A DNA stretch of 64,000 nucleotides from a virus: IMG/VR virus record IMGVR_UViG_3300036791_001436, positions 1 to 64,000 of that record. The stretch is one strand, 5' to 3'. The notes beneath the pieces are model-generated. The model saw only the letters and a program-made list of their open reading frames with translations, was not told the origin of the DNA and ran no database searches. This document shows positions 5,658 to 64,000 of the stretch, in pieces. The position numbers were made by a program, and so were the translations under genes. Every line of letters starts with the position of its first letter. Position 1 is the stretch's first letter.

Positions 5658-5980
5658 ACCCCTTCAAGGCGAGCGCAAACGCTGGGACAGCAGTTGTCGA
5701 CGCAGGGCGCGTCTCGAGCATTGCACGCACCGTCGATGGCCACTTCGAAGCCCACTGCGACCTAGAGGTGTCCAGAGCTTGTCCCCAGTGCGGCGAGCCC
5801 AACCCCCGCACGAGCGACGATGGCGAGGTGTATTGCTGTCGGTGCCTATCGCTCCTACCGCCGGTGGAGAAGTACCCCCGCGTCGAAGACGTGCGCTTCA
5901 AGCCGCCGAAGATACCGCTGTTGGCGGCGGTCTTCTTGTGGGGCGCCCGCAAGCTACGTGCAATAGCAGGAGAACTCTGA
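5654..5980 (+). CDS. Small zinc-ribbon-like protein
   Basis: A 108-aa protein with a probable zinc site, CPQC near residue 41 followed by a CCRC cluster about 18 residues later. A short hydrophobic stretch (IPLLAAVFLWGA) near the C-terminus might lie in or on a membrane. It is coupled to the gene before it through an ATGA overlap and to the next gene, whose ATG shares the last base of its stop. Function unknown. Confidence 0.6.
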   Translation: MNPFKASANAGTAVVDAGRVSSIARTVDGHFEAHCDLEVSRACPQCGEPNPRTSDDGEVYCCRCLSLLPPVEKYPRVEDVRFKPPKIPLLAAVFLWGARKLRAIAGEL

Positions 5981-7160: not shown

Positions 7161-10100
7161 GTGGGCTACTCACTGGTAGGCACTGGGGGCTACGGCTCCG
7201 GCGTTACGCTGACTGGTAGCAACTTCAGTGCTGTTACCGGCGGCTCAATAACGTTCTCCCAGCAGGCCTCTGAGGCGCTGGTCAATACCCCCTTGCCTCT
7301 GCCTGGTACGTTGTCAGGCCTAAGGGCTGATCAGGGGCCCTTCACAGCGCCTTTTGTAGGGACTCTCCGCAAGAACGGGGCGAACGCCAACCAGGTAGTC
7401 ACCGACGCTGTCCCCTTGGCAGGACAGGCAGCCACTAGCTTTCTGCGTGGTGACACCGTTGATATGTCCTGGGGCACAGCCACCGGGACGATCTCTCGCC
7501 TGCAGATGGTGTGGGTAGGTCAAGGGGCGGCGCACAGTGCTCTCTATGGCTCGGGAGCTTCCTCTGGCAGTGGCAATCCCTTCGGGCCAGCGAACAACCA
7601 CTTCTACCAGTGCCTCTTTGGACAGCAGGGAGGTCAGACAGTTAGTGCGGGCCCTGCGTATGCACAAGTTGGTGCCCCAGGGACGCTCCAGGGCTTTGCA
7701 GTCTGCGTCGCTAGTAATATCAATACTTCCCCTGTCACGGTCAGCGTCTATCAGAATGGGGCGGTTGCGACACAAGGGGTAACGGTTGGCGCCGGGATCA
7801 CCGGAGCATTCCAGGACACTACCAACACCACCCCCGTACAGTATGGCGACCTTATCTGCTCGCATCTGTACTCGAGCGACGGGATGAATCTCGCCTCGAT
7901 AGTGGTAGGGTTTGTTAGTAATGCGGGGCCACAGCACGATATCTTCGGCAACTGCAACGGTGCTATCGGGGCGAACGCCGTCACCTATGCGCCGATCTAC
8001 GGCTTCTACGCCCTCTACCAGAATACCATCGAGTCCGCACAGCAGGTCGTACATGGATTCCGAGTCAACCTTACTGGCCTGAAGGCGTACGCGTATAACC
8101 TAAATAACGCTACAGGCCCATCGACGATTAGGACGCGCATCAACGGCGCGAATGGCACTCTGCTAGTTACCGTTGGCGCAGGCCTGACAGGGTGGTTTGT
8201 AGATACCGCGCATACCGACTTCTTGGGGCCCACGGATAAGCTCTGCTACCAGGTGACTGCCGGGCCAGGGCCTGCTGGCAACGTCCTTCTGACCAACGTT
8301 GTAGGCGTCACCGAGATTGCGCCATTCCCGAGTCAGGTCTCCCCGACACGAGGATATTCACTCTTCGGGAATACCGGCGGCGCCGCAGCCGTAGGTGCAA
8401 ACACTTTCAGCATGCTAGGGGGCGGTAACGCTGCTTATAAGCAGGCTGTTGAAGCAAATGCCCAAGTTGCGATGCCCGTGGCGGGGGTGCTATCAAACCT
8501 GTCAATACAGGGACCGACTTCTGGTACCTTTACTGGGCGACTCCGTAAGAACCTCGCGAACGCCAACCAGCAGGTCAACGACGGCAATCTGTTTGTGCCA
8601 CCGGTTAACGACTATACGCTGAGCCCCTGGAGCCAATTCAACGTAACTGTCACGCCGGCAGCGACAACTAATCCTATTACTGGAGCGACAGACGCTCAGC
8701 TGGTAGTGCCTACTACCGCGAACAACGGCCACGTTGTTAACCAGACCATCAGTGTTAATGTCGCAGGCAACTATACGCTCAGCTGGTACCTTAAGGCGTC
8801 GGGCTATACCTACAACCGAATCCTGGTGCAACAGTCGGGTTTCTTCGCCTATGCAACATTCAACCTCTCTGGCGCAGGGTCGATGTTTGCCAGTGGGATA
8901 TCTGCATCTGGTGGGGTTACGTTCGTATCGGGGAGTATCGTATCGCTAGGTTCGGGCTGGTACCTTTGCACGCTCAATGTTGGCAACATCCTCACTACGT
9001 CCAGCATAATCGTTGAAGCTGGGCCGTGCGACAATACAGGCAACGCGACCTTCGCAGGTGATGGCACCTCAGGTGCCTACGAGTGGGGCGGAAGATTTGT
9101 GCTGACCAGCTCGGTGCCATCGACGCTGACTTCTAATGCATTCGATAACGTCGCACTAGGTGATACGATCGACCTAGCCTGGGATGCCAACACTTCGGGG
9201 CAGATCCAGCGTACGAGGCTAACTCTGGTTGGGAATCCGTACCACGGGGCAGTCTGGGGGTCCACCCCATACAACAACGCTACTACGGCCATCCCGATCA
9301 ACAACAGCGCCTACCATCAGTTTGTCGGCTTCAACCAGGCCTATCCAGGGCTAGCACAGTACCTTCAAAGGTGCCAGCTCAAGATAGGCGTTGCAGGCCT
9401 TATGCAAGGTCTAGGGCTGAACGCTCCTGTCAATGCGGCGGCTAGCAGCGTGACGCTCTCGCTCAACCTGAATGGTGCGACAGCAGCGCTGGGGCCCACC
9501 ATTGGAGCTGGGCTAACAGGCGCCTTCATCGACACCACCCGACAAGTTGCAGTGGTGCCGGGCGATCTCGTCTGCGGAAATACTCTGGCTATTCCGGCAT
9601 CGTTCAGCGTCTCGTCGGTTTGGGTGGGGTTCGTCAATCCCAGCGCCCCTAGCAACGACATCTGGTTTGGAGTCACCGCCGGTCTTGTGCAGACCGCTGG
9701 TGTCTACTTCCCGCTCGTTGGTGGTGGCCAGTACGGCGGTATTACCCCCGAATCAGTTGCTCAGACCGCGCACGGCTTTGCGGTTACAATGTCGGGCCTG
9801 CGTGTGTATGTGGACACCAGCACCTCGACGGCCCCCGCCTCGATCAACACCCGCAAGAATGGAGTCAACGGCAATCAGATTGTGACTATAGGGGCAGGGT
9901 TGACGGGGTGGTTCCAGGACACCGCCAACACCGACTCCTATGCCCCGACAGACCTGGCCTGCTACCGCTCTGTGGTAGGGTCTGCGGGCCTTAGCGGTGT
10001 GTACTACATTGGCGTCACCGAGACCGCCCCTCTCGCTCCCGCTCCTGCCATTCCAGCTAGGGGATGGTCGCTAGTCGGGATGACCAACTACGGTGTGCAG

Positions 10101-13100
10101 GGGTTCCAGACTGGAGCAGGGTTCACCCTGCCCCTTACCGAGTCGATGCGTTTACTGCAGGCCACTGAAACGGCAGGGCAACTCCCGATGCCGGTAGCAG
10201 GGACGCTCGGAGGACTGACCGCATCGCAAGGTGCGGTGACCGGCAACTGGAGCGCCCAGCTCCGGAAGAATAGCGCGAATGCCAACCAGGTCATCAATGA
10301 TGGCAACCTGGTGAAGTGGTGCAACGACTATACCCAGACCTCAGTGTGGGGCAACGGCGATGTCACCATCACTACCGCTGCGTTGGTCAATCCTATCACT
10401 GGGAGGCCCGATGCTCAAAAGGTCGTGCCAGATACCGTCAACACCTATCACTTCCTCAGTCAGCAGATTGCGGGCATACCGCAAGGAGCGACCACTACAC
10501 TGTCGGTCTACGCTAAGAACGCCAACTACAACTTCGCCTTCGTCCAACTCACCGATGGTACCATCTACGTTGGTGCCAACTTCGATCTGACCACCGGCGC
10601 AGTCACATATACCCAGGGCAGCGTCGCAGGGGCTACGCTGGTGTCGACTTCGGCTGTGGCAGTAGGGTCGGGCTGGTGGCTGCTGTCGGTCACGGTGATG
10701 TTCGCTGCGAGCTCGCCTAATATACAGATCTACGCTTTCCCGACAGGCGGTATCCCCTCCTACGCAGGCGATGGAACATCGGGTATCTACCTCTTCGGTG
10801 TGAAGGTTACCTGGGCTCCCGTATTGAACTCTGGTTCGGACTATACGAACCCAGCATGGATCCAGCAGGACGTTACGGTCACGCCAGCGGCCACATCGAA
10901 CCCGCTCACGGGAGCGAACGACGCTCAGAAGATCACCCCAGATACGGTCAATACTGGGCACCAGGTCCATCAGCCGATCTCGTTCGCTAGCGGCGTGGCT
11001 AATACGCTCACCGTCTATTGCAAGAATGCCGGGTACAACTTTGCCTTCATCTCGTTCAGTGACTTCGTCGCCAACGCGGCCGGTATCGTTGTTGACCTGA
11101 GCTCGGGCGAAATATTGAACATCCAGCAGGTCGGTAGTATGACGCTCGGGCTGTATTCGGCTGTGATGATGGCCAACGGCTGGTGGAAGATCACACTGAC
11201 GGGAACCGCTACCACCTCGCCAGTCCACGTGACGATCCATCCGTCCGCCACAGGAGGCACTGCACCGTTCGCAGGTGATGGAGTCTCTGGCATCTACGCC
11301 TATGGCGCGCAACTTACCCAAGCTGCCGCTGTTGCCCCACCGTTGACCTCGCTAGCCAAAGACACCTGCGTAATAGGCGACTTGATGTCGCTGTCATGGG
11401 GTGTTGCGAACGGCACTGGCACAGTGCAGCGCTTGCAGATGTCCCTGCTGGGAAGTGCATTGCACTCTGCCATCTATGGGAGTGCATATCCCAATACCAA
11501 TCCAGCCTCGTTCCCCGGCAACAACCACTTCTACATGCCCCTTTGGGGCTACATGATGGGAGCTGTCCTTTCGCAGCTGCCCTACGTCAATAATATGATT
11601 GGCGCAGCGGGGACATTGCAGAACCTGTCGATCAACCTGCCGATCAACAACATGACCGGCGCCAGCGCCTTCACGATCTACCAGAACGGGGCGGTTGCTA
11701 ACCTAGGACCGACTATCGGTGTGGGGCTCACTGGGATCTTCACAGACACCCGCCAGCTGCAGGTCAACCAAGGCGATATGGTCTGCACGCACCTGTTCGC
11801 TAGCGGTGGATCCTTCCTGCCAACTGGTCTCACTGTAGGGTTCGTCAATCCCAATGCGCCCGCCAACGACCTCAACGTTCACGTCTACGCCGGGCTGGTG
11901 GCTGGCACTACTACGTACTACCAGATCTACGGCGACTCGTTCAGTCTCGGCGGAGTCACTGAGGTGGTGGCGCAGACCGCCCACGGCTTCGGCGTTACGA
12001 TGTCTGGGATGCGGGTTGGTATCGCTACCAACACCACCACCTCGATCTCGACGGCGGCAATACGCGTCAATGGAGTAACAGGGAACTCTAAGGTCACCAT
12101 TGGCGTCGGCCTAACCGGCTGGTTCGTTGACAGTGTGAACCAAGACTTCTGTGGGTATACGGACAAGGTTGCCTATCAGGTAGTGGCGGGCGCAGGTTCA
12201 GGATCTCCCATTGTAGTTTCCTTCATTGGCGCCGTAGAGACTGCCCCTGCCAACCCGCCCAGTAGTGTGCTGATGGGCGCAAGCGGCAGTATTGGCATCG
12301 CTGCGACTACCGGCAACTTCTCTGGACTAGCGGGTTCAGGCTTCGTTGGGAGTGGCGTTACAGAATCGTTCATTGCATACCCAATGCCTGTAGCAGGCGC
12401 GTTCAGTGGCCTCTCGGTGCCCCCGAACGCAGGACAGACTGGTACCTGGACAGCCCAGTTCCGCAAGAACAGTGCGAATGGTGCCCAGGTGGTGACCAAT
12501 GCAGCCCTGAGTTCCCTCAATGTGGACCCTGTAGCGGCAGGCGATAAGGTAGACCTAGCTTGGGGTGCAGGTACATCAGGTTTGATCTGGGCCATTCAGT
12601 CAGTCTTCTCAGCGGCGTCTGATCACTGGGCGATCTACGCCTGCGGCCACCAAGCGGCCGGCGGGAACGTAAACGCTGGAGCTACCATCTACCCCAGGCT
12701 CTGCGGATCGCCTGGAGGCCAAACGACCGAAGCAAATGTGCAGTCTCAGATAGGGGCTCCGGGCACACTCTCAGGGTTAGTAGTCATAATTTCGTTGAAC
12801 GCTGCGACCGCCTCTTCAACTGCAGGGCTTCGTAAGAACGCTGCGAACGGCACACAGACAGTCACGATTGGAGCCGGCCTAACTGGACTCTTCCAAGATG
12901 TGACCCATACCGATGCGGTGGTGGTAGGCGACCTGATCAATGGGATCACCACTGCAGGTGCTGGCGGTACCATCAGCCTTATGGTAATAGGCGTAGCCTT
13001 CAAGAATACGGTCAACTTCCTTAGCGATCTCTTCGTGTCCGGGGTATCGTATACCGCGGCTGGATATGCTCGTATCTACGGGCAGAGTCTCGGCACCTTC

Positions 13101-15449
13101 ACTGAGGCGCAGGCGCAGGTCTCACATGGCTTCGCGACTAGGATGTCACGCTACTGGATCAACGTCACTACAAATACCTGCACGGCTCCATCGAACAGCA
13201 CGGTGCGTATCAACGGTGTGCAGGGGAATCAGGCTGTCACTGTTGGTGCAGGCCTGCTAGGCATCTTCACCGACGTGATCAATACCGACGCTGTAGGGCC
13301 CAACGATCTTGTCTGCTATGGCACCTTCCCTGGTGTTGGTGGTTCATTCCAGCCACTTACTATGGGCATCACTGAGAACGGGAATGTTACATACACCCCC
13401 AACATAGTGGCAAATGCTACGGCCGCGGTGGTGAGGGGCGCGAACACCATCTTGCGCTCGCCGGTATTGGCCAATGTGCCCACAGTGCAGAACCTGCGCC
13501 CCTTCAGGATTGTTCAGCAGCCGTTGATACCTACGCTTGCTCAGGCAGTGTCTCTGTACTTCCACGGCAGGCAGGTCTTCCATAACCGCATCATCGACAC
13601 CCCTGGGATCGGCATCATATACAAGAATGCCCTGAGGCCGATCAAGCCATTCGTTGCAGTGCAGTCGCCCTTGTCAAGGGGCACTGTGCGCATCCTCCTG
13701 ACTCTCAGCGGTGCAGTGAGCGAGTACTCTTCTACGGTGATTCGCGCCGCTGCCAATTACAGGGCGAATACCTTCCCGATAATGACTCAGAGGCTCGCCG
13801 CGACTATCATTCGGCACAATAACGAGCAGGTAGTTGCCCTGCTCAGGGAGAGCCTTGGACGTACCTTCCCGACGGTGATAGCCAATGTAGTGGCGCCGTA
13901 TGCGAATACGTTCGGTCGCGCGATGAAGACCGTGTCTACGGTAGTCGCCCTCTTCAACCGAGGGAGCCCACGGCTGTATCTGGTTGAGAGCACTCACGTA
14001 GTGGATCTGATCAACAAGGCAGCCGCTCGCCCAAGGATTATCAACGCTCAGACTATCCAGTGGGTTGCCTTTGCGCCTGCACGTGCATACCTGGCGCTGG
14101 TGGCGATAGTGTCGTTGCGCCCGAACAGAGTAGGTCGCGCTGCGCCTGCTGTCGTGAACACGCTCAATATCCACACCAAGGAGGCAGTCCGACTGATCCT
14201 CACCCAGGTGACGCAGATTGTATCATTGCGGAACGATGCGCTGCACCAAGCGGAGTATGTTGACGCCGCTACTACGCAACGGTTGCGCAACCGAGTTGCT
14301 CGTGCCGCTCCTGTAGTCGCGACGGTAGTGTCGTCGATCGTGGACTCGATAGTTCAGCTTGCAACAACTACTATCGCAACGGCAGTGAGCCTGTTGAGGA
14401 GGCGGGTACCTAACTTCCCGTTGGCTGAATCTGAACACGTAATGTCCTTCGACACGTACACGGTGAAGCGCCACGAGGCCACCAATGTGGTTACAGTGCA
14501 GTCGATCAGCTTCACCTTCGGTCGAGGGATGCTGGCAGTTACAGCAGTAGTGTCTCTGTTGGTGAAGGCGGTGCGGAACGCCGTGAAGCCGCTCGCCAAC
14601 GTCGTAGTCTTGTTCCAACACACAATCCCCACCTATCTCCTCGCGGCGAGCGAACATGTCGTGAGCATCGAGCATGATACGGTGAAAAGGCGTGAAGCTA
14701 CCAGCGTAGAGACCGAGCAGCTGTTCTCCCAACTGAAGGGACACACCTCCATTGGCGTGACACAGGGTGTGCCATCCTCCAGCAACAATGTAGGGAAGCC
14801 TTTGGCGGCAGTGGTAGTTTTCACTACTGAGTCGTTCCGTAAGGGTGCTACACATATCGTGCTCGCGGTGGCCAACACTATGGAACGAGTGGCATTCTCC
14901 ATTGCGCACCTTGAAGATCCTAACGCTGCCGTAGTCGCCATCGAGCGTGTAGCAGTGGTAGAGCGCCCCATCGATGTGGTGGCTACCGTCGTCTCCGCTG
15001 ATGTGAAGGCAATAGCCAAGCCTCTGGAAGCAATTGAGGTCCCGGTATCGCTGTTCACCAGGGTGACTCAGGTCCTGAGCTTCATCGCCGTCGCACCTGT
15101 AGTGACACTGCTAGGACGTGTAATCAACATCCGCAGAGTCATTATGGCTCCCGTCATAGCGTGGGTGCAGCTGGTTCGTCCCATGAGCGCTGTGGCTTTG
15201 GCAACCGTGTCGTCGCTGCTCGTGAGAGCTGTGACTCAACCTCGTACGGCTGTAATCACGGTCTCCTCAAAGCTGTTCATCCCGCTGTTGCGCTTCTTCC
15301 TAGCCGCTGCCAATGTTGTCGCCCATGGCGCCAACAATGCAGGCAAAGTGGCGCACGTCAACGCTATCGTCGTGCCAATGACCAAATACGTTGGTGGAAG
15401 GGTTAGAAGGCTCTTCCAATTCATGCGAGGGATATCACCTAGGAGCTAG
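7161..15449 (+). CDS. Giant repeat-containing tail fibre / surface protein (2762 aa)
   Basis: Residues 1 to about 2073 hold four large repeats, starting near 1, 397, 967 and 1702. Each opens with an LRKN-AN-QVV type segment and is followed by two shorter repeats with a GAGLTG-F-DT core, eight in all. Three jellyroll-like modules ending in GDGTSG-Y-WGGR or YGAQL are inserted at about 481-650, 1053-1223 and 1223-1387; they resemble the carbohydrate-binding-like modules common in phage fibres. Residues 2074-2762 change to a Val/Arg/Ala-rich, basic region with degenerate repeats (HVV or HVM segments near 2274, 2421 and 2494). It starts at GTG after AAAGGGG. It is probably an exposed fibre or decoration that meets sugars. 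It lies between packaging and head genes, not in the tail block, which is unusual. Confidence 0.75.
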   Translation: MGYSLVGTGGYGSGVTLTGSNFSAVTGGSITFSQQASEALVNTPLPLPGTLSGLRADQGPFTAPFVGTLRKNGANANQVVTDAVPLAGQAATSFLRGDTVDMSWGTATGTISRLQMVWVGQGAAHSALYGSGASSGSGNPFGPANNHFYQCLFGQQGGQTVSAGPAYAQVGAPGTLQGFAVCVASNINTSPVTVSVYQNGAVATQGVTVGAGITGAFQDTTNTTPVQYGDLICSHLYSSDGMNLASIVVGFVSNAGPQHDIFGNCNGAIGANAVTYAPIYGFYALYQNTIESAQQVVHGFRVNLTGLKAYAYNLNNATGPSTIRTRINGANGTLLVTVGAGLTGWFVDTAHTDFLGPTDKLCYQVTAGPGPAGNVLLTNVVGVTEIAPFPSQVSPTRGYSLFGNTGGAAAVGANTFSMLGGGNAAYKQAVEANAQVAMPVAGVLSNLSIQGPTSGTFTGRLRKNLANANQQVNDGNLFVPPVNDYTLSPWSQFNVTVTPAATTNPITGATDAQLVVPTTANNGHVVNQTISVNVAGNYTLSWYLKASGYTYNRILVQQSGFFAYATFNLSGAGSMFASGISASGGVTFVSGSIVSLGSGWYLCTLNVGNILTTSSIIVEAGPCDNTGNATFAGDGTSGAYEWGGRFVLTSSVPSTLTSNAFDNVALGDTIDLAWDANTSGQIQRTRLTLVGNPYHGAVWGSTPYNNATTAIPINNSAYHQFVGFNQAYPGLAQYLQRCQLKIGVAGLMQGLGLNAPVNAAASSVTLSLNLNGATAALGPTIGAGLTGAFIDTTRQVAVVPGDLVCGNTLAIPASFSVSSVWVGFVNPSAPSNDIWFGVTAGLVQTAGVYFPLVGGGQYGGITPESVAQTAHGFAVTMSGLRVYVDTSTSTAPASINTRKNGVNGNQIVTIGAGLTGWFQDTANTDSYAPTDLACYRSVVGSAGLSGVYYIGVTETAPLAPAPAIPARGWSLVGMTNYGVQGFQTGAGFTLPLTESMRLLQATETAGQLPMPVAGTLGGLTASQGAVTGNWSAQLRKNSANANQVINDGNLVKWCNDYTQTSVWGNGDVTITTAALVNPITGRPDAQKVVPDTVNTYHFLSQQIAGIPQGATTTLSVYAKNANYNFAFVQLTDGTIYVGANFDLTTGAVTYTQGSVAGATLVSTSAVAVGSGWWLLSVTVMFAASSPNIQIYAFPTGGIPSYAGDGTSGIYLFGVKVTWAPVLNSGSDYTNPAWIQQDVTVTPAATSNPLTGANDAQKITPDTVNTGHQVHQPISFASGVANTLTVYCKNAGYNFAFISFSDFVANAAGIVVDLSSGEILNIQQVGSMTLGLYSAVMMANGWWKITLTGTATTSPVHVTIHPSATGGTAPFAGDGVSGIYAYGAQLTQAAAVAPPLTSLAKDTCVIGDLMSLSWGVANGTGTVQRLQMSLLGSALHSAIYGSAYPNTNPASFPGNNHFYMPLWGYMMGAVLSQLPYVNNMIGAAGTLQNLSINLPINNMTGASAFTIYQNGAVANLGPTIGVGLTGIFTDTRQLQVNQGDMVCTHLFASGGSFLPTGLTVGFVNPNAPANDLNVHVYAGLVAGTTTYYQIYGDSFSLGGVTEVVAQTAHGFGVTMSGMRVGIATNTTTSISTAAIRVNGVTGNSKVTIGVGLTGWFVDSVNQDFCGYTDKVAYQVVAGAGSGSPIVVSFIGAVETAPANPPSSVLMGASGSIGIAATTGNFSGLAGSGFVGSGVTESFIAYPMPVAGAFSGLSVPPNAGQTGTWTAQFRKNSANGAQVVTNAALSSLNVDPVAAGDKVDLAWGAGTSGLIWAIQSVFSAASDHWAIYACGHQAAGGNVNAGATIYPRLCGSPGGQTTEANVQSQIGAPGTLSGLVVIISLNAATASSTAGLRKNAANGTQTVTIGAGLTGLFQDVTHTDAVVVGDLINGITTAGAGGTISLMVIGVAFKNTVNFLSDLFVSGVSYTAAGYARIYGQSLGTFTEAQAQVSHGFATRMSRYWINVTTNTCTAPSNSTVRINGVQGNQAVTVGAGLLGIFTDVINTDAVGPNDLVCYGTFPGVGGSFQPLTMGITENGNVTYTPNIVANATAAVVRGANTILRSPVLANVPTVQNLRPFRIVQQPLIPTLAQAVSLYFHGRQVFHNRIIDTPGIGIIYKNALRPIKPFVAVQSPLSRGTVRILLTLSGAVSEYSSTVIRAAANYRANTFPIMTQRLAATIIRHNNEQVVALLRESLGRTFPTVIANVVAPYANTFGRAMKTVSTVVALFNRGSPRLYLVESTHVVDLINKAAARPRIINAQTIQWVAFAPARAYLALVAIVSLRPNRVGRAAPAVVNTLNIHTKEAVRLILTQVTQIVSLRNDALHQAEYVDAATTQRLRNRVARAAPVVATVVSSIVDSIVQLATTTIATAVSLLRRRVPNFPLAESEHVMSFDTYTVKRHEATNVVTVQSISFTFGRGMLAVTAVVSLLVKAVRNAVKPLANVVVLFQHTIPTYLLAASEHVVSIEHDTVKRREATSVETEQLFSQLKGHTSIGVTQGVPSSSNNVGKPLAAVVVFTTESFRKGATHIVLAVANTMERVAFSIAHLEDPNAAVVAIERVAVVERPIDVVATVVSADVKAIAKPLEAIEVPVSLFTRVTQVLSFIAVAPVVTLLGRVINIRRVIMAPVIAWVQLVRPMSAVALATVSSLLVRAVTQPRTAVITVSSKLFIPLLRFFLAAANVVAHGANNAGKVAHVNAIVVPMTKYVGGRVRRLFQFMRGISPRS

Positions 15450-33990: not shown

Positions 33991-34479
33991 CTAACCGAAC
34001 TCCCAAGGGAAGACGACCCAATTATTCGGTATCTCGGTACCAGGGAACGAGATCGGAGGGCGGTGCCCCTTGTAGAACATCACCGCAGTAGTGGCTTCAG
34101 GGAGTAGCCAGCGCGCCCAGGTCATAGTGCGCCCTGTATCCCAGAGGTCGTCGACGATCAGCGAGTCCGGGTTGTTGTACTTGGCTCGGTATTCTGGCAG
34201 AGTCATCTGCGGGCGCGGGAGCAGCTCCCCTAGTCGACGACCGTCCTTATACCCCATTACCCGAACGGATTCAAGGTTGGTCACGTTGAACCTATGGCTG
34301 AGCAGAAGGCCAGCGAACCACCCACCACGCCCTATAGCGAGCAATCGGTCAGGCTTGTACTTGTGCTCAAGCATAACCCTATGCAGGTGATTGACCGCTA
34401 GCTCCGCGGTCGCCCAACTGACGTATACCTTAGGTGCCGGCTCAGGAGCGACCGCGCGTGAGTTAAGCTCTGACGGCAT
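33991..34479 (-). CDS. Purine phosphoribosyltransferase, type I fold
   Basis: A 162-aa enzyme with the PRPP-binding motif VDDLWDTGRT at residues 109-118 and the preceding LLAIGRGGWFAGLLLS loop, as in xanthine/guanine phosphoribosyltransferases. ATG 34479 has AAGGAG eight bases upstream and lies 17 bases inside the end of FolE, so the two are coupled; an upstream ATG at 34527 lacks such a site. In this setting it could salvage guanine into GTP for FolE, but a link with deazaguanine synthesis is only inferred from position. Confidence 0.8.
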   Translation of the reverse strand: MPSELNSRAVAPEPAPKVYVSWATAELAVNHLHRVMLEHKYKPDRLLAIGRGGWFAGLLLSHRFNVTNLESVRVMGYKDGRRLGELLPRPQMTLPEYRAKYNNPDSLIVDDLWDTGRTMTWARWLLPEATTAVMFYKGHRPPISFPGTEIPNNWVVFPWEFG

Positions 34480-35209
34480 CGAAGAACTCCTTCCGCAGAG
34501 GCGGGTTGGTGAGGAATCGTCCGCCACAGCGGTCGGTGACAGTCTTGGAGTTTTGCTGTTGAGCGCCCCTGGCCTTCATGCACATGTGCGTTGCCTTGAT
34601 GCACACAGCGATGTCCGTGGTGCCGAGGATGTATGCCAGCGCCTCGTAGATCTGTGCAGTCAGACGTTCCTGCACTTGAGGGCGCCGAGCGAAGAACTCT
34701 GCCACACGGGCGAACTTGGATAGGCCGAGGAGTTTGCGGTTGGGAATGTAGGCGATGTGCGCCACCCCGTCAATAGGCATCAGGTGATGCTCGCATAGAC
34801 TCATGATCTGGATATCCTGCACCAGCACCATCTGGTCGTAGGCGCCGTGTGCTTCCTCTGGGGGAGGGGCGTTACTGCCGGTCCCTGTAGCGGCGGGGAC
34901 TAGTACGGGCCGAAGCACACCATTCGGCACCACCGTGCACTCAGGGAAGCGTTCGTAATCCAGGCCGGCACAGAACTCCTCAATGAACATCTTCGCATAC
35001 CGGGCCGGTGTACGCATTAGGGAAGGATTGGTCAGGTCCAGCCCAAGATGGTTCAGGGCGATGCACAAGGACTCTTCGATGTAGGACTCTGCCAGTTTGA
35101 AGTCCGGGTCGTCCTTGAGAGGGGTCTCGAACCCCATCTTGACAAGGTGTTTGCGGACCTCCTCGCCTAGGGCGGGGTTGGTGATGTACTCGCTACCGAG
35201 TCGTGCCAT
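34463..35209 (-). CDS. folE: GTP cyclohydrolase I
   Basis: Turns GTP into dihydroneopterin triphosphate, the first step of preQ0 synthesis. The zinc ligands of the family are present: Cys139 and His142 in SLCEHH and Cys210 in THMCMKARG; the QxxNSKT-type end is QQQNSKTVTDR. It has about 25 extra residues near 100-125 (Pro/Ala/Gly-rich). At 248 aa it is close to bacterial FolE. It overlaps DUF3310 upstream and the phosphoribosyltransferase downstream. It lies in the RNR operon rather than next to queCDE, but the same phage carries the whole pathway. Confidence 0.93.
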   Translation of the reverse strand: MARLGSEYITNPALGEEVRKHLVKMGFETPLKDDPDFKLAESYIEESLCIALNHLGLDLTNPSLMRTPARYAKMFIEEFCAGLDYERFPECTVVPNGVLRPVLVPAATGTGSNAPPPEEAHGAYDQMVLVQDIQIMSLCEHHLMPIDGVAHIAYIPNRKLLGLSKFARVAEFFARRPQVQERLTAQIYEALAYILGTTDIAVCIKATHMCMKARGAQQQNSKTVTDRCGGRFLTNPPLRKEFFDAVRA

Positions 35210-39096: not shown

Positions 39097-41508
39097 CTAT
39101 GCCGCCTCCTGTAAGGGTTCCCACTCCTGCATTGCGTCCGAGTCCCAACGTTCACCGAACTTCGCATCGGCGACGAACGGCACTCGTGTAAGGCCCCAAT
39201 CTCTTGGTACTCTGGCCATCACCCCGAGCACGTACGTTAGCGATTCGTCCAAGGCCTGACGGTCCTGACGGATCTTGAAGTAGATGCTGTCGTGCACTAG
39301 GTTGCAGATCCTAGCATTCCACCGCTCGCGAAGCACGGGGGCCACCTCGCAGGCGGCCACGGTGTTGATGTCGGACGCCGTGCTTGAGTGGGGGTAGTTC
39401 GCGGCCTCGTTCTCAAGGTCGTGAAGGTTCTCGTAGCTGACCACACCCCACCTCTTTTTGCGTCCGAAGTTGGTGATCATCGTCCATCCTCGTGCAGGGG
39501 CTTTGCGCGAGTCCATGATGAACTCCTTTGCCCGAGGAAACTGGGCAAACCACCCATCGATGTACTCTTGCGCCACTTCGGTCGTGGTGTCGAATTCCTC
39601 TGCCAAGGTCCATGCAGTGCGCCCATATACGATACCAAACGTGACCGCTTTCGCTCTCATGTACTGCTCGTGGTTGTAGTTCTCCCCAAAGTATCGTCGT
39701 GACACAACCTTGTGGATGGAGGTCTTACCCTCCACGTAGATCTCGCATAGGGAAGGGTCGCCGCTCATAACAGCGAGGCATCGGAGCTCGGCTTGGTTCA
39801 GGTCAGCCTCAACTAACCACTCATCGGGGTCCGCAATGAACTGCCGACGGATGAAGGGACCGCGCTCCATGTTCTGTAGGTTGGGGTCCTTAGAGGCTAG
39901 ACGTCCATTCACAGTCCCATGGATCAGGTAGCTCGTATGAACCTTCCCGTCCTTGTATCTCCACCCGAGCGCGGGCTTAACGTAAGTGCCGTGGCGTTTG
40001 GCGAGCTTCCTTACGCGCTGGATGGGGCGCACAATGGGATGATTGTGCTTGCGCTGGATCTGGATGATCGCCTTGGCGTCTGTGGAAGTGCCGATGGGGC
40101 CTAGCTTCATCCGGTTGTATAGGAGATCCCCCAGCTGTGCTGGGGAGTTGACGTTGATCGGGGCCCCGCAGTACTTGATAGCGTATGGCTGGATCTTGGC
40201 AACTTCCGCTTCGATCTCATCCTTGCACAGCTTGTCGTTCGTTGCGACTACTTCTGGGTCTAGGAGGATACCTTCCAGTTCCACCTCTGCCAGCATTTCG
40301 GAGGCTGGGATCAGTACACGGCGGTACAGCTTGGAGAGGTGTGGGTCCTTAGTGATCCGGGGCTGCTGCGCAAAGAATATCTGGTGCGTCTTGGCAATGT
40401 CATATGCTTGGTACTTGTAGAGAGCCTCTCTAGGTACGAGAGCATACGAGCGGTCGGCTTTCTTGTACCGCTTCAGGTATTGGTCTAGTTCCGCCTTGTG
40501 ATGCGGAGCACCGAGTTCCCGTAGGGCAATTTGATCCAAGTCGTGCAGACCGCGCGTCTCGTTGAGCGCATAGGACTGTAGCATAGTGTCTTCATCGACA
40601 CGAGCTCGTATGCCTTCTGCCCGGAAAAACTTAACGTCAAACTTGCCGTTCTGCCAGATCCATCTGGGTCCACGGGACTCCATGAGCCTCCGGGTAAGAG
40701 ATTCGGCCCGCCAGATAAGGCGGTTCGGGATGATGTAGACATGCTCCCCATTCCACGTTACACCATGTGATATCATCCAGTCGCTGAGGAAGTCGAACCC
40801 AGAGGTCTCGATGTCCCCAGTCAGGTACGGTTGCTTGATGGCCTTATGTACGAACGCGGCATACTCTGGGATAGTTTTGATCACTCTGTAGGTAGGTGGC
40901 TCCCACACATCTGGTGGGCGGTCTTGTGCTAAGAGAACTGCCTTCTTCAGATCCCGCTGCCACTCCGAGTACCCTCCCCCACCTTGCTTCATCAGGAACG
41001 CAGGGTGCACCGCCAGTACTACTCCGTGCTTGGCGAGTGAGGTGGGGATGACTTGCCCACGCACACGGGTAATCTTGATGTTGGTAATGCCGGTTAGGCT
41101 TACGGCTGCATGCTGCCCTAGTGCCAGAATGACTTTGCGAGGGTGCGCGCGGATCTGGTTGATGAGCCGCTCGTGGCAAATGCTCACAGCCCGTGGCATC
41201 CGATCGTCGTCCTTCACCTTCGGGAAGCACTGGATCGCATTGAGGATGAGCGGTTTGATGTGGGGAGGCAGACCTACCTTTGCCAGGATGGTCTCTAGCA
41301 TCTCTCCTGAGGGCCCAACAAACGGGACCCCACGTGACAGCTCTTGCGCCCCTGGGCTCTCTCCGACTATCACGAATGGAGAATCAGCGGGGCCCCTTCC
41401 CCCTACTTTGAGCCCTCCGAAGGGACACCCATTGCAGCCTACTGGCCGCTGGTCTAGAGGGACCCTAGGAATGAGGCGTAGGGCGGACGCTAGAGGATGG
41501 ACAGCCAC
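39097..41508 (-). CDS. Uracil-DNA glycosylase fused to family A DNA polymerase
   Basis: An 803-aa fusion. Residues 1-195 form a family 4/5 uracil-DNA glycosylase-like domain with motif GESPGAQE (49-56), HPAFLM (168-173) and four Cys fit to bind an iron-sulphur cluster (25, 28, 94, 111). Then comes a 3'-5' exonuclease with Asp232 and Glu234 in GDIETSG and YDIAKTHQ near 397, followed by polymerase motifs A (VEADLNQAELR), B (RAKAVTFGIVYG) and C (LVHDSIYF). In motif C, Ser stands where Glu is common after HD; the catalytic Asp is kept. It is probably the replicative polymerase. A linked glycosylase could remove uracil from template or nascent DNA. It ends the operon driven by P4. Confidence 0.9.
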   Translation of the reverse strand: MAVHPLASALRLIPRVPLDQRPVGCNGCPFGGLKVGGRGPADSPFVIVGESPGAQELSRGVPFVGPSGEMLETILAKVGLPPHIKPLILNAIQCFPKVKDDDRMPRAVSICHERLINQIRAHPRKVILALGQHAAVSLTGITNIKITRVRGQVIPTSLAKHGVVLAVHPAFLMKQGGGGYSEWQRDLKKAVLLAQDRPPDVWEPPTYRVIKTIPEYAAFVHKAIKQPYLTGDIETSGFDFLSDWMISHGVTWNGEHVYIIPNRLIWRAESLTRRLMESRGPRWIWQNGKFDVKFFRAEGIRARVDEDTMLQSYALNETRGLHDLDQIALRELGAPHHKAELDQYLKRYKKADRSYALVPREALYKYQAYDIAKTHQIFFAQQPRITKDPHLSKLYRRVLIPASEMLAEVELEGILLDPEVVATNDKLCKDEIEAEVAKIQPYAIKYCGAPINVNSPAQLGDLLYNRMKLGPIGTSTDAKAIIQIQRKHNHPIVRPIQRVRKLAKRHGTYVKPALGWRYKDGKVHTSYLIHGTVNGRLASKDPNLQNMERGPFIRRQFIADPDEWLVEADLNQAELRCLAVMSGDPSLCEIYVEGKTSIHKVVSRRYFGENYNHEQYMRAKAVTFGIVYGRTAWTLAEEFDTTTEVAQEYIDGWFAQFPRAKEFIMDSRKAPARGWTMITNFGRKKRWGVVSYENLHDLENEAANYPHSSTASDINTVAACEVAPVLRERWNARICNLVHDSIYFKIRQDRQALDESLTYVLGVMARVPRDWGLTRVPFVADAKFGERWDSDAMQEWEPLQEAA

Positions 41509-42323
41509 TGCCGCACCGCCCTGATGTTGTCAAGTGCGTGTGGGTGGTCGTCCAGAGTTCCTTTCTCGAACCAGTTCTTCGGGCGAGGCTCTTGCTTGTG
41601 GCTCGGGCTTAGTTGTTGGGGATGGCGTATAGGGACTGCCGAGTCAATTCCTAACACCCCCGTCTGTCGAGCCGCCTGTAGATCATCCCATATGTTGTCA
41701 CTGAACCCCAGCAGGTGGATGTTGATGTCCGGCCGTATGAGATGGATGTACTGCACCGCCGCTGTTCGCATTGGCCCTAGTAGGCGAGGTACTCCTGCCC
41801 AGGTGATCAGCGGGAAGGCCTTGGTGTCCAGTAGGAAAGCGTCTGCGATGTTGGTGAACTCCTCCCAAGAGGGGCCATGCGTCACCAGCATGAATCCTTC
41901 GCTGAGGTCCACGATGTCACTTTGTACCCACTCACTGTAGGCGATCGTGCTACGGAGAGCGGTAATGTCGGCGCTGCCCATCTCATCTGGAAGTACTGGC
42001 ACTAGACGGAGGCGCGAGAGCCGATGGGCGTGGATGGGTTCGGCTGTGGAGATGGCCTTGAGCGCGGCCTCCATCACGTCTATCGGGATGGGTATCCCCA
42101 ACTCCACGATGCTGTTGTCCATGATCACGACAACGTCCCCGCCTGCAGTGGTGAGGATGTATTCTCTGAACCTAGCGGTGAACCGTTCTGGGAACTCCAG
42201 TACGTGGTGCGCCAGGAGGAGATGGTAGTCCCCGAATACAAAAGGGGACATCTCCTCCAGGATCTGGATGGGAGCAACAGGTGCGAACTTCGGGTGGTGG
42301 GTGGGGTGGTTGTTGATTGTCAT
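41490..42323 (-). CDS. dpdA: DpdA-like DNA 7-deazaguanine transglycosylase
   Basis: A 277-aa TIM-barrel enzyme related to tRNA-guanine transglycosylase. IMDNSIVELG (Asp69) corresponds to the first catalytic Asp segment (DSGGFQ) of TGT, and GIDSAVPIR (Asp227) lines up with the nucleophile segment FDCVLPTR. HLLGFSDN matches the loop between them. The zinc-binding Cys/His cluster of TGT is missing, as expected for DpdA. It would swap guanine in DNA for preQ0. ATG 42323 overlaps the queE stop (ATGA); the frame is open further upstream but that part overlaps queE. The TGT relationship is firm; DNA as substrate is inferred from the phage setting. Confidence 0.82.
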   Translation of the reverse strand: MTINNHPTHHPKFAPVAPIQILEEMSPFVFGDYHLLLAHHVLEFPERFTARFREYILTTAGGDVVVIMDNSIVELGIPIPIDVMEAALKAISTAEPIHAHRLSRLRLVPVLPDEMGSADITALRSTIAYSEWVQSDIVDLSEGFMLVTHGPSWEEFTNIADAFLLDTKAFPLITWAGVPRLLGPMRTAAVQYIHLIRPDINIHLLGFSDNIWDDLQAARQTGVLGIDSAVPIRHPQQLSPSHKQEPRPKNWFEKGTLDDHPHALDNIRAVRQWLSIL

Positions 42324-43171
42324 CGTGCGCGCTCGTTTCCCCAGATGAGTACGTGAAGTTGTGGCAGGTACTTCCAGTGTGCCAGTCGCCAGTCGTTCAG
42401 GAAGTCCTGCTCCAGAGAGTCCTTGAAGTCGCGGAGTAGCAGTTTGGGGATATCTTCGTCCCCCTCTGCTGCCTGAAATCCTCTGGCGGGAATTGGTGGC
42501 CACGGATTGCCGACAGAGAGGAATCGCTCCTCTCTTGGGAAGACGTAGTAGTCCAGGAGTGCATCCACTGTGATGGCGAACTCTAGGTCCAGTGCCGAGA
42601 AGACGATGACTTTGATGCTGGTCATGGTGCCACTGCAACGCATCAGGAAGTCGGAGAACTTATCTGGCTCGAACTTCTCTCCCATGCCAGGACCCTTTGG
42701 TGAGATGGTCACCTGGTTGCACAAGGCCACCCAGTCTTGCCAGATGGTCCCTTGGGTCTCTAGGGCGACCTTGAATCCTCGTTGTTGTAGGGAGCGGACT
42801 AGATCACCCCCTTCTTCCCAGATGGCTGGGTTGCCTCCGCTCAGAGTCACCCACTGAGCTAGCCGACCGCATTTTTGGGCGACCTCTTCCGCTATTTCCT
42901 CCGGGTACATCCACGTTGCGTGCGCGTGGATAACTTGAGGGATCACTGCGAACAGGGAGTCGCACATCCTGCAGCGGTAGTCGCAACCTCCTAGTCTGAC
43001 GAACATCGTTTTGGTGCCAATCATGACACCCTCGCCTTGGATGGTAGGGCCGAAGACTTCCATCACGGGGAGCTTGCCTCGCTTCCCTTCGTCCTGATCG
43101 GGGAGCGGTGCTGCCTTGAGCTGGGCTGCCTCAGTCGGGTCGGATCTCGTAGCTTGCGGAATTTCCGTCAT
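42320..43171 (-). CDS. queE: 7-carboxy-7-deazaguanine synthase (radical SAM)
   Basis: Converts 6-carboxytetrahydropterin to 7-carboxy-7-deazaguanine. It has the TIQGEG motif at 43-48, the radical SAM iron-sulphur motif CDYRCRMC (Cys63, 67, 70) and LSGGNPA near 114. At 283 aa it is a little longer than the bacterial enzyme, with a polar 30-residue N-terminal extension. It overlaps queD by 41 bases and dpdA by four. Confidence 0.92.
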   Translation of the reverse strand: MTEIPQATRSDPTEAAQLKAAPLPDQDEGKRGKLPVMEVFGPTIQGEGVMIGTKTMFVRLGGCDYRCRMCDSLFAVIPQVIHAHATWMYPEEIAEEVAQKCGRLAQWVTLSGGNPAIWEEGGDLVRSLQQRGFKVALETQGTIWQDWVALCNQVTISPKGPGMGEKFEPDKFSDFLMRCSGTMTSIKVIVFSALDLEFAITVDALLDYYVFPREERFLSVGNPWPPIPARGFQAAEGDEDIPKLLLRDFKDSLEQDFLNDWRLAHWKYLPQLHVLIWGNERAR

Positions 43172-43589
43172 GTTCCGACACTGTCACTTTCTCTAGTTGT
43201 ACCCGCCCGTCTGATTGGGAGGCGATGAAGGAGTAGGCGTGTTGGAAGATATGGGCAGCGAAGGCCTCGATCCCTACTTGTGGGAGCACTATGAGGTCTG
43301 CCGCTTTGGCGATCTGGAGTTCCCTGAATGTGCTGATCAGAGGATCGTCGGCAGCCACTAGCAGCTTATGGTCGAACTGCTCCTGGAGCCACATCTTCAG
43401 TTCCTTGAGCCCGCCGAAGTCCTGCACCCAGCCATTCTCGTCAAGGGCAAACGCCGAGAACTCGAAGTGGATCTTCAACGCATACCCATGCAGGTAGTGG
43501 CAGTGGGAATCCGATCGCCATTGCCTGAAGCAGCAGCTTAGACCTTGTTCGTGCCCATAGGTCTTGCTGCTAGTGAACCTATGTTCCAT
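43131..43589 (-). CDS. queD: 6-carboxytetrahydropterin synthase
   Basis: Makes 6-carboxytetrahydropterin from dihydroneopterin triphosphate. The catalytic Cys30 and LHGYALK segment match the CxxLHGHxF region, and SEHDGNSASYE near the C-terminus fits the Glu/Tyr active-site segment. The third zinc His of the usual HGH is a Tyr here (HGY, residue 36), while His13, His29, His31 and His34 are present. The length of 152 aa is normal for the family. It lies five bases upstream of the overlap with queC in a tightly packed block. Confidence 0.85.
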   Translation of the reverse strand: MEHRFTSSKTYGHEQGLSCCFRQWRSDSHCHYLHGYALKIHFEFSAFALDENGWVQDFGGLKELKMWLQEQFDHKLLVAADDPLISTFRELQIAKAADLIVLPQVGIEAFAAHIFQHAYSFIASQSDGRVQLEKVTVSEHDGNSASYEIRPD

Positions 43590-43594
43590 GGCTG

Positions 43595-44389
43595 CTACTC
43601 CGCCAGGTAGACGGTTGGGTCGTGGACGATCGCATCGTGGAACGCTTCCCTACGTGCGATACAGGTTGGGCAGACACCGCAGTGCCGGCTCTCACCTGCA
43701 TAGCAGCTCCAGGTGTCTGCGAAGTCGACGTCCAGGGAGTCACCGAGTTGCACGACTTCGGACTTCACCATGTGCACCAAGGGAACGCGAAGGCGCACCT
43801 TCCCGTAGGTGCCGATCTGGATGGCTGCCGCTTGCGCACCGAGGAACTCCAGAGTGCAGTCTGGGTATGCGTCTCTGGCTGCATCGTCGGCGTGCATCCC
43901 AGCGTAGAGAATGGCGTTGGCCTGTGCTAGGCTCTTCTCTGCTGCCATCACCCAGGACTGTGCCCTCGCTGCCATGATGCTGAGCATTGTCCCGTTGCGA
44001 TAGCTGACGTAGGTTGGGGAGATGCCTTCGGGAAGCTCCCCGTACGACATCTGGGGGATGGGTTCGTTCACTTCCTTGTCCACCAACATTCCCGTGAAGG
44101 ACCCTTGGATGTTGACAACGATGTGCTCGGCCTCGAACTTCTTGGCTTGCCTGCGGGCGTACTCGATCTCCTTCTTGTGCCGTTGCCCATAATCGAAGGT
44201 CAGGCACTCGATCTCAGCACTGGGGAATTGGTCACGAGCGAACGCCAGGACGGTGCTGGAGTCGACTCCTCCCGACAACATGACGAAGCACTTGGTGACC
44301 ACGAGCGGGGGCTTGGGTCTCGGATCCCTAAATGTCGAAGTCAGGGTCTGGGGTAGGTCTGACTCTGTGGAGGTAGGGTGATCGACCAT
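43595..44389 (-). CDS. queC: 7-cyano-7-deazaguanine (preQ0) synthase
   Basis: ATP-dependent conversion of 7-carboxy-7-deazaguanine to preQ0. The PP-loop SGGVDSST is at residues 39-46, TFDYGQRHKKEI follows near 65, YVSYRNGTMLS near 130, and the zinc cluster CYAGESRHCGVCPTC near 235. ATG 44389 has AGAGG upstream; an earlier ATG at 44431 lies deeper inside the HTH gene. At 264 aa it has no fused amidotransferase domain, so preQ0 and not the amidine form is the expected end product within this window. Confidence 0.93.
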   Translation of the reverse strand: MVDHPTSTESDLPQTLTSTFRDPRPKPPLVVTKCFVMLSGGVDSSTVLAFARDQFPSAEIECLTFDYGQRHKKEIEYARRQAKKFEAEHIVVNIQGSFTGMLVDKEVNEPIPQMSYGELPEGISPTYVSYRNGTMLSIMAARAQSWVMAAEKSLAQANAILYAGMHADDAARDAYPDCTLEFLGAQAAAIQIGTYGKVRLRVPLVHMVKSEVVQLGDSLDVDFADTWSCYAGESRHCGVCPTCIARREAFHDAIVHDPTVYLAE

Positions 44390-44636
44390 GTTGGCCTCTA
44401 GCTTGTGGGTCGGAGGGTGGAGACTGGGCAAGACGTCGGAGCTCGGAGATGGGGATGCGATAGTTGCGCCCCATGTACTCGCCCTTGATCTGCCCAGTCT
44501 TGATCCAGTTCAGTACCGTGTGGTAGTGTACGTGGAGTAACGGTGCAGCGCGACGAGGCGATATCCATCCTCGGAGGTTGAGGATCTCCGCCGCCGTGAG
44601 ACCGGCGACTTCTTCTTCAATGTCGTTGGGGGACAT
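44328..44636 (-). CDS. Small helix-turn-helix DNA-binding protein (excisionase-like)
   Basis: A 102-aa protein with a MerR/excisionase-type HTH: ISPRRAAPLLHVHYHTVLNW near residue 25 and a wing IKTGQIKGEYMGRNYRIP. The C-terminal 30 residues are a basic Pro-rich tail that overlaps the start of queC by 62 bases in another frame. It is the only clear sequence-specific DNA-binding protein seen in the window, so it is one candidate to bind the dyads upstream of the promoters. That link is speculation. Confidence 0.75.
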   Translation of the reverse strand: MSPNDIEEEVAGLTAAEILNLRGWISPRRAAPLLHVHYHTVLNWIKTGQIKGEYMGRNYRIPISELRRLAQSPPSDPQARGQHGRSPYLHRVRPTPDPDFDI

Positions 44637-55497: not shown

Positions 55498-55541
55498 ATT
55501 ATATAGCACTCCTTATAGTCAAGCAAGAGTCCAAATTTAGG
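55498..55541 (-). promoter_or_regulatory. Promoter P7
   Basis: On the - strand: TTGCTT (55526-55521), 17-bp spacer, TATAAT (55503-55498) in GCTATATAAT. CCAAATTTAGG lies at 55531-55541, near -45, as at P5. No dyad is seen at -61. It would drive the 107-aa gene and the HNH gene. Confidence 0.75.
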
Positions 55542-58815: not shown

Positions 58816-59304
58816 CTATTCGGCAGCCGGCGCCTCCGTGGCGGGGGCTTCTGCCGAAGCCGGAGCCGCCGGAGCGGCAGGTGCTGCGGCCATCACTGGC
58901 TGCGCGGCTTTGTCGGGGCCGCCGGGCACCTTGTCGGTCGCCTGGAAGACGATCTGGTAGGCGACGTTCTTCCCTTCCAGGCGCGTGAGCTCCTTGGAGA
59001 TGGGACCGCGGCCGATCTTCTGGCTCCAGCGCGCGAGGATGTACTCCTTGCGTTTCATCGTGTCGCCGGCAGCGTAGGGATGGCCATCGGCCTTCACCAC
59101 GCCGGTGAGATCGGTGGCCGCTTGCGCGTCCAGCTTCAGAACAATGAAGCGGGAGTCGCCGGTGTTGGGCACCACCACGGGTGTGATCGTCGGGGCAGCG
59201 GGAGCGGCTGCAGCTTCGGCAGCGGGCGGGGCTTCGGCGACGGTTTCAGTGGCGGCTTCGGATGCGCTTTGATCCTGAGGATCGTGAGCGGGTTCCCTTG
59301 CCAT
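58816..59304 (-). CDS. Hypothetical protein with Ala/Pro-rich ends
   Basis: A 162-aa protein, first gene after promoter P8. Residues about 50-130 look like a folded domain (RFIVLKLDAQAATDLTGVV, YILARWSQKIGRGPISKEL), flanked by Glu/Ala/Pro-rich ends. ATG 59304 has AGGAGG eight bases upstream. No family recognised; cytoplasmic by sequence. Confidence 0.65.
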   Translation of the reverse strand: MAREPAHDPQDQSASEAATETVAEAPPAAEAAAAPAAPTITPVVVPNTGDSRFIVLKLDAQAATDLTGVVKADGHPYAAGDTMKRKEYILARWSQKIGRGPISKELTRLEGKNVAYQIVFQATDKVPGGPDKAAQPVMAAAPAAPAAPASAEAPATEAPAAE

Positions 59305-59396
59305 GGTTTGGCCTCCTTGGGGTGGTAGCGAGCGCTTGTAACGGTGTACTAGTGGTAGTGTCGCTGGGTACATCGCTGCTCTCACCGAACTCCATT

Positions 59397-63316: not shown

Positions 63317-63637
63317 TCACCCGTGGGCCGCGGTAGCGTGAGGGTCTCGGATCCACCCGATGTAGACGTCGCCGACTCTGTGGTGTACCTTACGTGGCGG
63401 CTTCGTCACCTCGTACAGAGCCCAAACGAACCCTTCCGGGGGCTGTTGGATGAAGGTTGGGCTGGCCCGGCGAAGGTTCGTACCGAACTTGTCTCCGTTC
63501 CGGGGACCGTCCCCTTCAACCTGTAGGATCTTGTACCCGTAGAATATGGGTGCCCCTTCCTGACTGATATTGGCGCTCATCTTCTCTTCCCTCGGTCTTG
63601 GGTTCTTGGGCGGTGCTGCCTTCTTGCCCCTAGGCAT
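63317..63637 (-). CDS. Small hypothetical protein, first leftward gene
   Basis: A 106-aa protein starting at ATG 63637 with GGAG upstream. The frame is open to 63748, but promoter P10 lies inside that part, so the shorter start is chosen. The N-terminal 20 residues are Lys/Pro-rich and the rest looks like a small beta domain (FYGYKILQVEGDGP, WALYEVTKPPRKVHHRVGDV). Probably an early gene; function unknown. Confidence 0.6.
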   Translation of the reverse strand: MPRGKKAAPPKNPRPREEKMSANISQEGAPIFYGYKILQVEGDGPRNGDKFGTNLRRASPTFIQQPPEGFVWALYEVTKPPRKVHHRVGDVYIGWIRDPHATAAHG

Positions 63638-63671
63638 GTACCTTTGCTCCAGATCTCCTACTTCACTATTC

Positions 63672-63700
63672 ATTATATAGCAACTTCCAGAGGGCTTCAA
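63672..63700 (-). promoter_or_regulatory. Promoter P10 (leftward half of divergent pair)
   Basis: On the - strand: TTGAAG (63700-63695), 17-bp spacer, TATAAT (63677-63672) in GCTATATAAT. The predicted start is near 63665, 63.5 bases from the centre of the shared dyad at 63721-63736. Confidence 0.8.
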
Positions 63701-63720
63701 GAGGCATTCGATTGGTCGGG

Positions 63721-63736
63721 CCAAAATCTTTTTTGG
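63721..63736. promoter_or_regulatory. Shared dyad between divergent promoters P10 and P11
   Basis: CCAAAATCTTTTTTGG, centred at 63728.5. The two -10 boxes lie at equal distances on either side, so the dyad is exactly central. It is the best candidate binding site for a regulator of the whole promoter family. Confidence 0.65.
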
Positions 63737-63756
63737 GTTCAACCCCATTTCGCCTC

Positions 63757-63785
63757 TTGAGGTCCCTTAGGGGTTGCTATATAAT
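63757..63785 (+). promoter_or_regulatory. Promoter P11 (rightward half of divergent pair)
   Basis: TTGAGG at 63757-63762, 17-bp spacer, TATAAT at 63780-63785 in GCTATATAAT. The predicted start is near 63792. It would drive the gene at the right edge of the window. Confidence 0.8.
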
Positions 63786-63812
63786 ATATAGAATGGAATT
63801 GGGGTGACGAGA

Positions 63813-64000
63813 GTGAGTCTGTACACCGCACGGCGGATCTCCAAAGAGCAGATCGCCATGACCAAGTGGGAAGCGGATCGCACCGACCCACTTGAAGTGT
63901 ACTACATATTTGGGTCCAAATGCTCTTGTCTCGGGAGCCTTAGACAACCATACTGCCGCCACATGCAAGTCCTAGCCGCGTTCCGCGAACTGCAGAGCAA
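63813..64000 (+). CDS. Partial gene with SWIM-like zinc motif
   Basis: Open to the window edge. From GTG 63813 (or GTG 63804 in the same frame) it reads 62 codons: a helical start (RRISKEQIAMTKWEADR), then YYIFGSKCSCLGSLRQPYCRHM. CxC-x8-CxH fits the SWIM zinc finger, a DNA- or protein-binding element. Only the N-terminal part is visible, so the family is uncertain. Transcribed from P11, opposite to the genes to its left. Confidence 0.55.
   Translation, partial: MSLYTARRISKEQIAMTKWEADRTDPLEVYYIFGSKCSCLGSLRQPYCRHMQVLAAFRELQS

Follow-up and report, generated by a model that had tools for sequence, protein, structure and literature searches.

UP elements are sites for the C-terminal domains of the RNA polymerase alpha subunits (alpha-CTD) at sigma70 promoters, as exemplified by rrnB P1. 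Class I activators of the CRP, lac type act from position -61.5. In UP elements, the distal subsite extends from -58 to -45 (PMC2613000). The early promoters of phage T4 are described as "uber" promoters that combine UP, -35, TGn, and -10 elements (PMC2988021). In bacterial bidirectional promoters, a single polymerase can bind the symmetric core in either orientation (PMC12825309, PMC10268837). The RpoD promoters of Caulobacter follow the pattern TTGaCgS / GCtANAWC, for which 10–19 bp between the motifs were used (PMC8144410).

The locus compared here with these systems lies in a window that comprises bases 1–64,000 of a 75,339-bp record of a tailed phage. The nearest cultured phages are the Brevundimonas phages MaInes and StAshley (terminase, 55%; DNA polymerase, 47%; an 823-aa protein, 48%). 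Megablast to known phages gave no match, a search of viral contigs with the 823-aa protein gave none either, and no terminase relatives were found in the bacterial genomes searched for a host. The parts of the divergent pair are listed in Table 1. Each promoter has a 17-bp spacer and matches the hexamers at 10 of 12 positions, and the pair thus combines -35 and -10 hexamers, a spacing within the range of 16–18 bp, and orientation toward genes as in sigma70-type pairs. The predicted transcription starts (63665 and 63792) are 127 bp apart and the -35 boxes 57 bp; the genes begin 28 bp (leftward) and 12 bp (rightward) past the predicted starts. The initial annotation had described an equal -35/17/-10 layout with a common 10-mer, and this is borne out to the base, since GCTATATAAT is exact in both promoters. 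The 10-mer has eight copies in the window and nine in the whole record, and shuffling predicts 0.72 in the window with one mismatch allowed. It had also placed the midpoint of the -10 boxes at the center of the dyad, about -63 from the starts. The -10 boxes, the -35 boxes, and CCAAAATCTTTTTTGG indeed all center on 63728.5, approximately -63.5 relative to the predicted starts.

Table 1. Positions of the parts of the divergent pair and of the helix-turn-helix-like proteins (window coordinates unless stated otherwise)
Feature	Position	Strand	Remarks
Leftward -10 box TATAAT	63672..63677	-	10-mer GCTATATAAT at 63681-63672
Leftward -35 box TTGAAG	63695..63700	-	CCTC just ahead of box
Leftward proximal element CGACCAATCGAAT	63706..63718	-	about -53 to -41
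Common distal A/T dyad CCAAAATCTTTTTTGG	63721..63736	both promoters	center 63728.5, about -71 to -56
Rightward proximal element CCCCATTTCG	63743..63752	+	about -49 to -40
Rightward -35 box TTGAGG	63757..63762	+	CCTC just ahead of box
Rightward -10 box TATAAT	63780..63785	+	10-mer GCTATATAAT at 63776-63785
First leftward gene	63317..63637	-	106 aa, without family match
First rightward gene	63804..64000, on to 64109 in record	+	GTG start, 101 aa
Three groups of small helix-turn-helix-like proteins	58816-59310; L009 6752-7174 (record 66752-67174); L009 7694-8221 (record 67694-68221)		motif GYS..DIA..L..YQ.VRN

Judged by their boxes, both cores are near-consensus for a host housekeeping sigma factor. 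Compared with the Caulobacter RpoD pattern (PMC8144410), GCTATATA fits GCTANAW, the -35 begins with TTGA, and the 12 bp between the motifs fall within the range used, whereas the phage -10 runs on as a full TATAAT. The fit of the -10 agrees with the Brevundimonas-infecting relatives, from which alone the host is deduced. Homologues of the first rightward gene occur in MaInes, with 32% over 100 aa, and in the related genome G011, and genes further to the left include homologues of MaInes genes.

The symmetry of the pair exceeds chance. Among the 150,424 centers in the 75,339-bp record, 63728.5 is the most symmetric at a half-width of 63 bp (39/63; mean 16.1, sd 3.6), in statistics that, like those of the motifs below, cover a single genome and relatives in modest number. 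The symmetry stems chiefly from the two promoter cores, whose 40-bp arms (63666–63705 and 63752–63791) are 78% complementary. The inner 16-bp dyad by itself is ordinary, with 6/8 positions and 757 centers equally good. The two cores agree at 31/40 bases, which ties for first place in 55 comparisons among promoters with a 17-bp spacer; such likeness does not in itself demand an inverted duplication.

The dyad is a phage-wide upstream element and not unique to the pair. Sixteen sigma70-type promoters were picked in the record by their cores alone, in lists that rest on consensus, and approximately 14 of them combine an A/T tract near -61, recognized by eye (for example CCAAAAATATCGG, CCCAAAAACTTTGG, CCAAAAGTAAATTGG, CAAAAATAATTTTTGG, and CTAAAATTTTTTCGG), with a second A/T block near -43; those at 55526 and 62585 lack the tract. 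Its recurrence at the same distance speaks for an element with an effect on every single promoter. A de novo motif search in the 55 bases upstream, with no position given, returned CAAAATTTTTTT in 13/16 promoters, 30–36 bp ahead of the -35 box. The log-likelihood ratio (LLR) of the distal A-tract/T-tract motif was 60.5, against 35.1 ± 2.5 in shuffles run with fewer restarts, and that of the block near -43, of the CCATCATTTTG type, was 57.8 against 26.6 ± 2.1. The A/T profile of the 16 promoters has two maxima, at -61 and -43, with a trough near -51. Both maxima return in a set of 28 promoters on related contigs, which were mostly reached via the terminase and are mostly fragments, and GACCAAAA is the commonest distal form there. 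Among 21 held-out promoters of more distant relatives no sharp -61 peak was found and the proximal peak alone is clear; three of these relatives (L214, L215, and L217) instead have two GACCANAAAAT-like units spaced by 11 bp.

The centers of the dyads or A/T blocks lie mostly between -60.5 and -64, with the tract spanning about -67 to -57. The CC..GG dyad varies in length from 13 to 17 bp in this phage, and the C/G flanks of the tract are only modestly above those of control A/T runs. The E. coli UP distal consensus is matched at 9/11 positions or better by 7/16 promoters, compared with 0.2% of random windows. The distal tract occurs beside early-region, replication, and structural genes alike. 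Toward the right end of the record, four promoters that point rightward and have an 18-bp spacer (69924, 71550, 73115, and 74364, in L009) make up a separate subclass; from the -10 box onward into the predicted transcript they share TATAATAGTTATATTGGAAG or a close version of it. Three further phages (L026, L027, and L037) have the same CTCTTGA / TGCTATATAAT core in many repeats; their upstream block differs, being CAAAATAGCACC near -55.

We assign a probability of about 0.5 to the reading that two host-sigma promoters share an upstream element that is most likely contacted by the alpha subunits of RNA polymerase in a UP-like manner. Promoters of the host sigma70 type would fire outward at a conserved border of leftward and rightward gene blocks, and each bears the upstream module usual for the phage, in which the A/T block lies near -43 and the A/T tract near -61. 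Where two such modules overlap, a single tract would serve both promoters and the layout would turn symmetric. Since each arm needs its own element at the same place, for alpha or for an activator, overlapping directional elements would yield a dyad. Two polymerases may then abut at the common tract and either compete for it or alternate on it. The sequence, positions, and recurrence of these parts are observed; the promoter activity and the alpha contact are what we infer. The pair would mainly be a neat case of an ordinary phage promoter design and less a new type of switch.

Several results point to alpha contact, namely the near-consensus core boxes, the de novo distal motif at promoters picked by core alone, the return of both A/T peaks in the promoters of relatives, the match to the E. 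coli UP distal consensus, and the dyads centered in two further pairs (see below). As in UP elements, A/T-rich blocks lie upstream of the -35 box, and the proximal block (-46 to -40) falls on the proximal subsite (-45 to -37). The distal tract resembles the A-tract/T-tract of the UP distal consensus, but it is centered near -61 and not within -58 to -45, it is common to two promoters, and alpha contact is predicted here. Because the canonical distal subsite begins about one helical turn further downstream, we have not classed the tract among the UP elements. The alpha-contact reading is weakened by this position, mostly upstream of the subsite and where class I activators sit, by the frequent CC/GG borders, and by the distant promoters in which the proximal peak is clear and the distal one is not.

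The position is also what gives weight to a less probable but serious alternative, in which CCAAAA..TTTTGG, at about -61 to -64, is the site of a dimeric factor of the phage or host that activates both promoters via alpha, with the -43 block as the docking site of alpha. The initial annotation had proposed such control of both directions by one bound protein, as at class I promoters, and its pair is real, with a common element at a class-I-like distance. Element centers match the class I position at single promoters and pairs, an A/T-rich block lies between dyad and -35 box, and relatives again have the CC..GG borders and copies of GACCAAAA. A unique common operator is not supported, since the dyad is phage-wide, and a rigid dimer operator, as would be expected of a class I activator, is weakened, because the length of this dyad is not constant and because its flanks are modest against other A/T runs. 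Recognition of A/T sequence fits this variable half-site spacing and these weakly special flanks better. Candidate factors exist in the three groups of helix-turn-helix-like proteins (Table 1), which are conserved in MaInes and several relatives; genes of this kind stand immediately behind promoters with the element, among them one arm each of the 68358 and G012 pairs described below. However, their assignment is weak, with best E values of 0.0016 (PHROGs) and 0.013 (PDB). The cores also look strong unaided, and the element stands ahead of genes of every apparent class, which favors polymerase contact over a stage-specific activator. In a scan of 63641–63820, no CtrA (TTAA-N7-TTAA), CRP, FNR, LexA, or IHF pattern was found, so there is no CRP-like site as at lac, and GANTC occurs at 63815 only, outside the pair. 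Going by sequence, the alpha C-terminal domains would explain the element at least as well as a bound regulator.

It is improbable that the symmetry is incidental, with ordinary back-to-back promoters separated by a mere A/T-rich spacer. Phages often have divergent promoter pairs, as a loose scan of viral contigs matched at least 120 contigs (among the matches listed, mostly A/T-rich unrelated phages), the inner dyad is not rare, and the orthologous pair of MaInes and StAshley is without it; yet the tract keeps its position at most promoters of the record and a midpoint dyad is found in three pairs. We consider even less probable a repressor operator or switch, in which both promoters would be closed by a phage repressor bound at 63728, or mutual exclusion of the polymerases would leave one direction in use at a time. 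The symmetric position, at which the polymerases would meet, and the helix-turn-helix-like genes would suit it, but the element is clear of the -35 and -10 boxes, where repressors usually bind, it is also present at single promoters, and no integrase or lysogeny gene was found among the genes examined. A bidirectional promoter with a symmetric core was rejected. The locus has pseudo-symmetric DNA with predicted divergent transcription as those promoters do (PMC12825309, PMC10268837), but it contains two complete, separate cores and only the upstream element is common. As a tentative suggestion, a phage family might use a dedicated regulator, perhaps one of its helix-turn-helix-like proteins, or an alpha-CTD site displaced to -61, and drive or balance the leftward and rightward programs from a single copy exactly between divergent promoters, in a layout that recurs at 63728, at 68358, and in a distant relative.

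A second pair lies outside the window, at 68329 (-) and 68387 (+), with -35 boxes 58 bp apart and a dyad around AAAATTTAATTT whose center, 68358.0, is the exact midpoint. The pair falls within L009 8221–8415 (record 68221–68415), and its leftward arm, a predicted promoter, precedes a small helix-turn-helix-like gene. In the distant relative L196, with a terminase 42% identical, a pair at 5896/5950 sits between outward-running genes with a distance of 54 bp, a dyad at 5923.5, and a midpoint at 5923.0. In all three pairs (63728.5, 68358.0, and L196), an A/T dyad is thus centered no more than 0.5 bp from the midpoint. MaInes and StAshley have the same gene boundary with divergent CCTCTTGAAG -35 boxes 91 bp apart, and no shared dyad was found at this orthologous pair. 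In G011 the nearest pair is 145 bp apart, and G012 has a pair 93 bp apart with separate elements. Because the boundary is kept in relatives while spacing and dyad differ, the divergent boundary is old and the compact shared form particular to some lineages and recurrent. Both this set and the T4 early promoters are phage-wide near-consensus host-sigma promoters with additional conserved A/T-rich upstream sequence; T4 differs in phage, host, and spacing, and the description considered here does not mention one tract shared in a divergent pair (PMC2988021).

A promoter type consisting of a core and two upstream A/T blocks is thereby defined for little-studied relatives of Brevundimonas phages, and it allows transcripts to be predicted across their poorly annotated genomes. 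The pair also offers a small, naturally occurring system in which to ask if two outward-facing polymerases can be served by one upstream element.

Other genes of the window were also observed. A 2762-aa open reading frame (7161–15449) lies between structural genes and has no Pfam match. The family A DNA polymerase (39097–41508) carries a uracil-DNA glycosylase domain at its N-terminus (Pfam PF03167, E 7.8e-21). Homologues of the MaInes GTP cyclohydrolase and 7-deazaguanine synthesis enzymes are encoded at 34463–35209 and 42320–44431, which suggests a modified guanine in the phage DNA.
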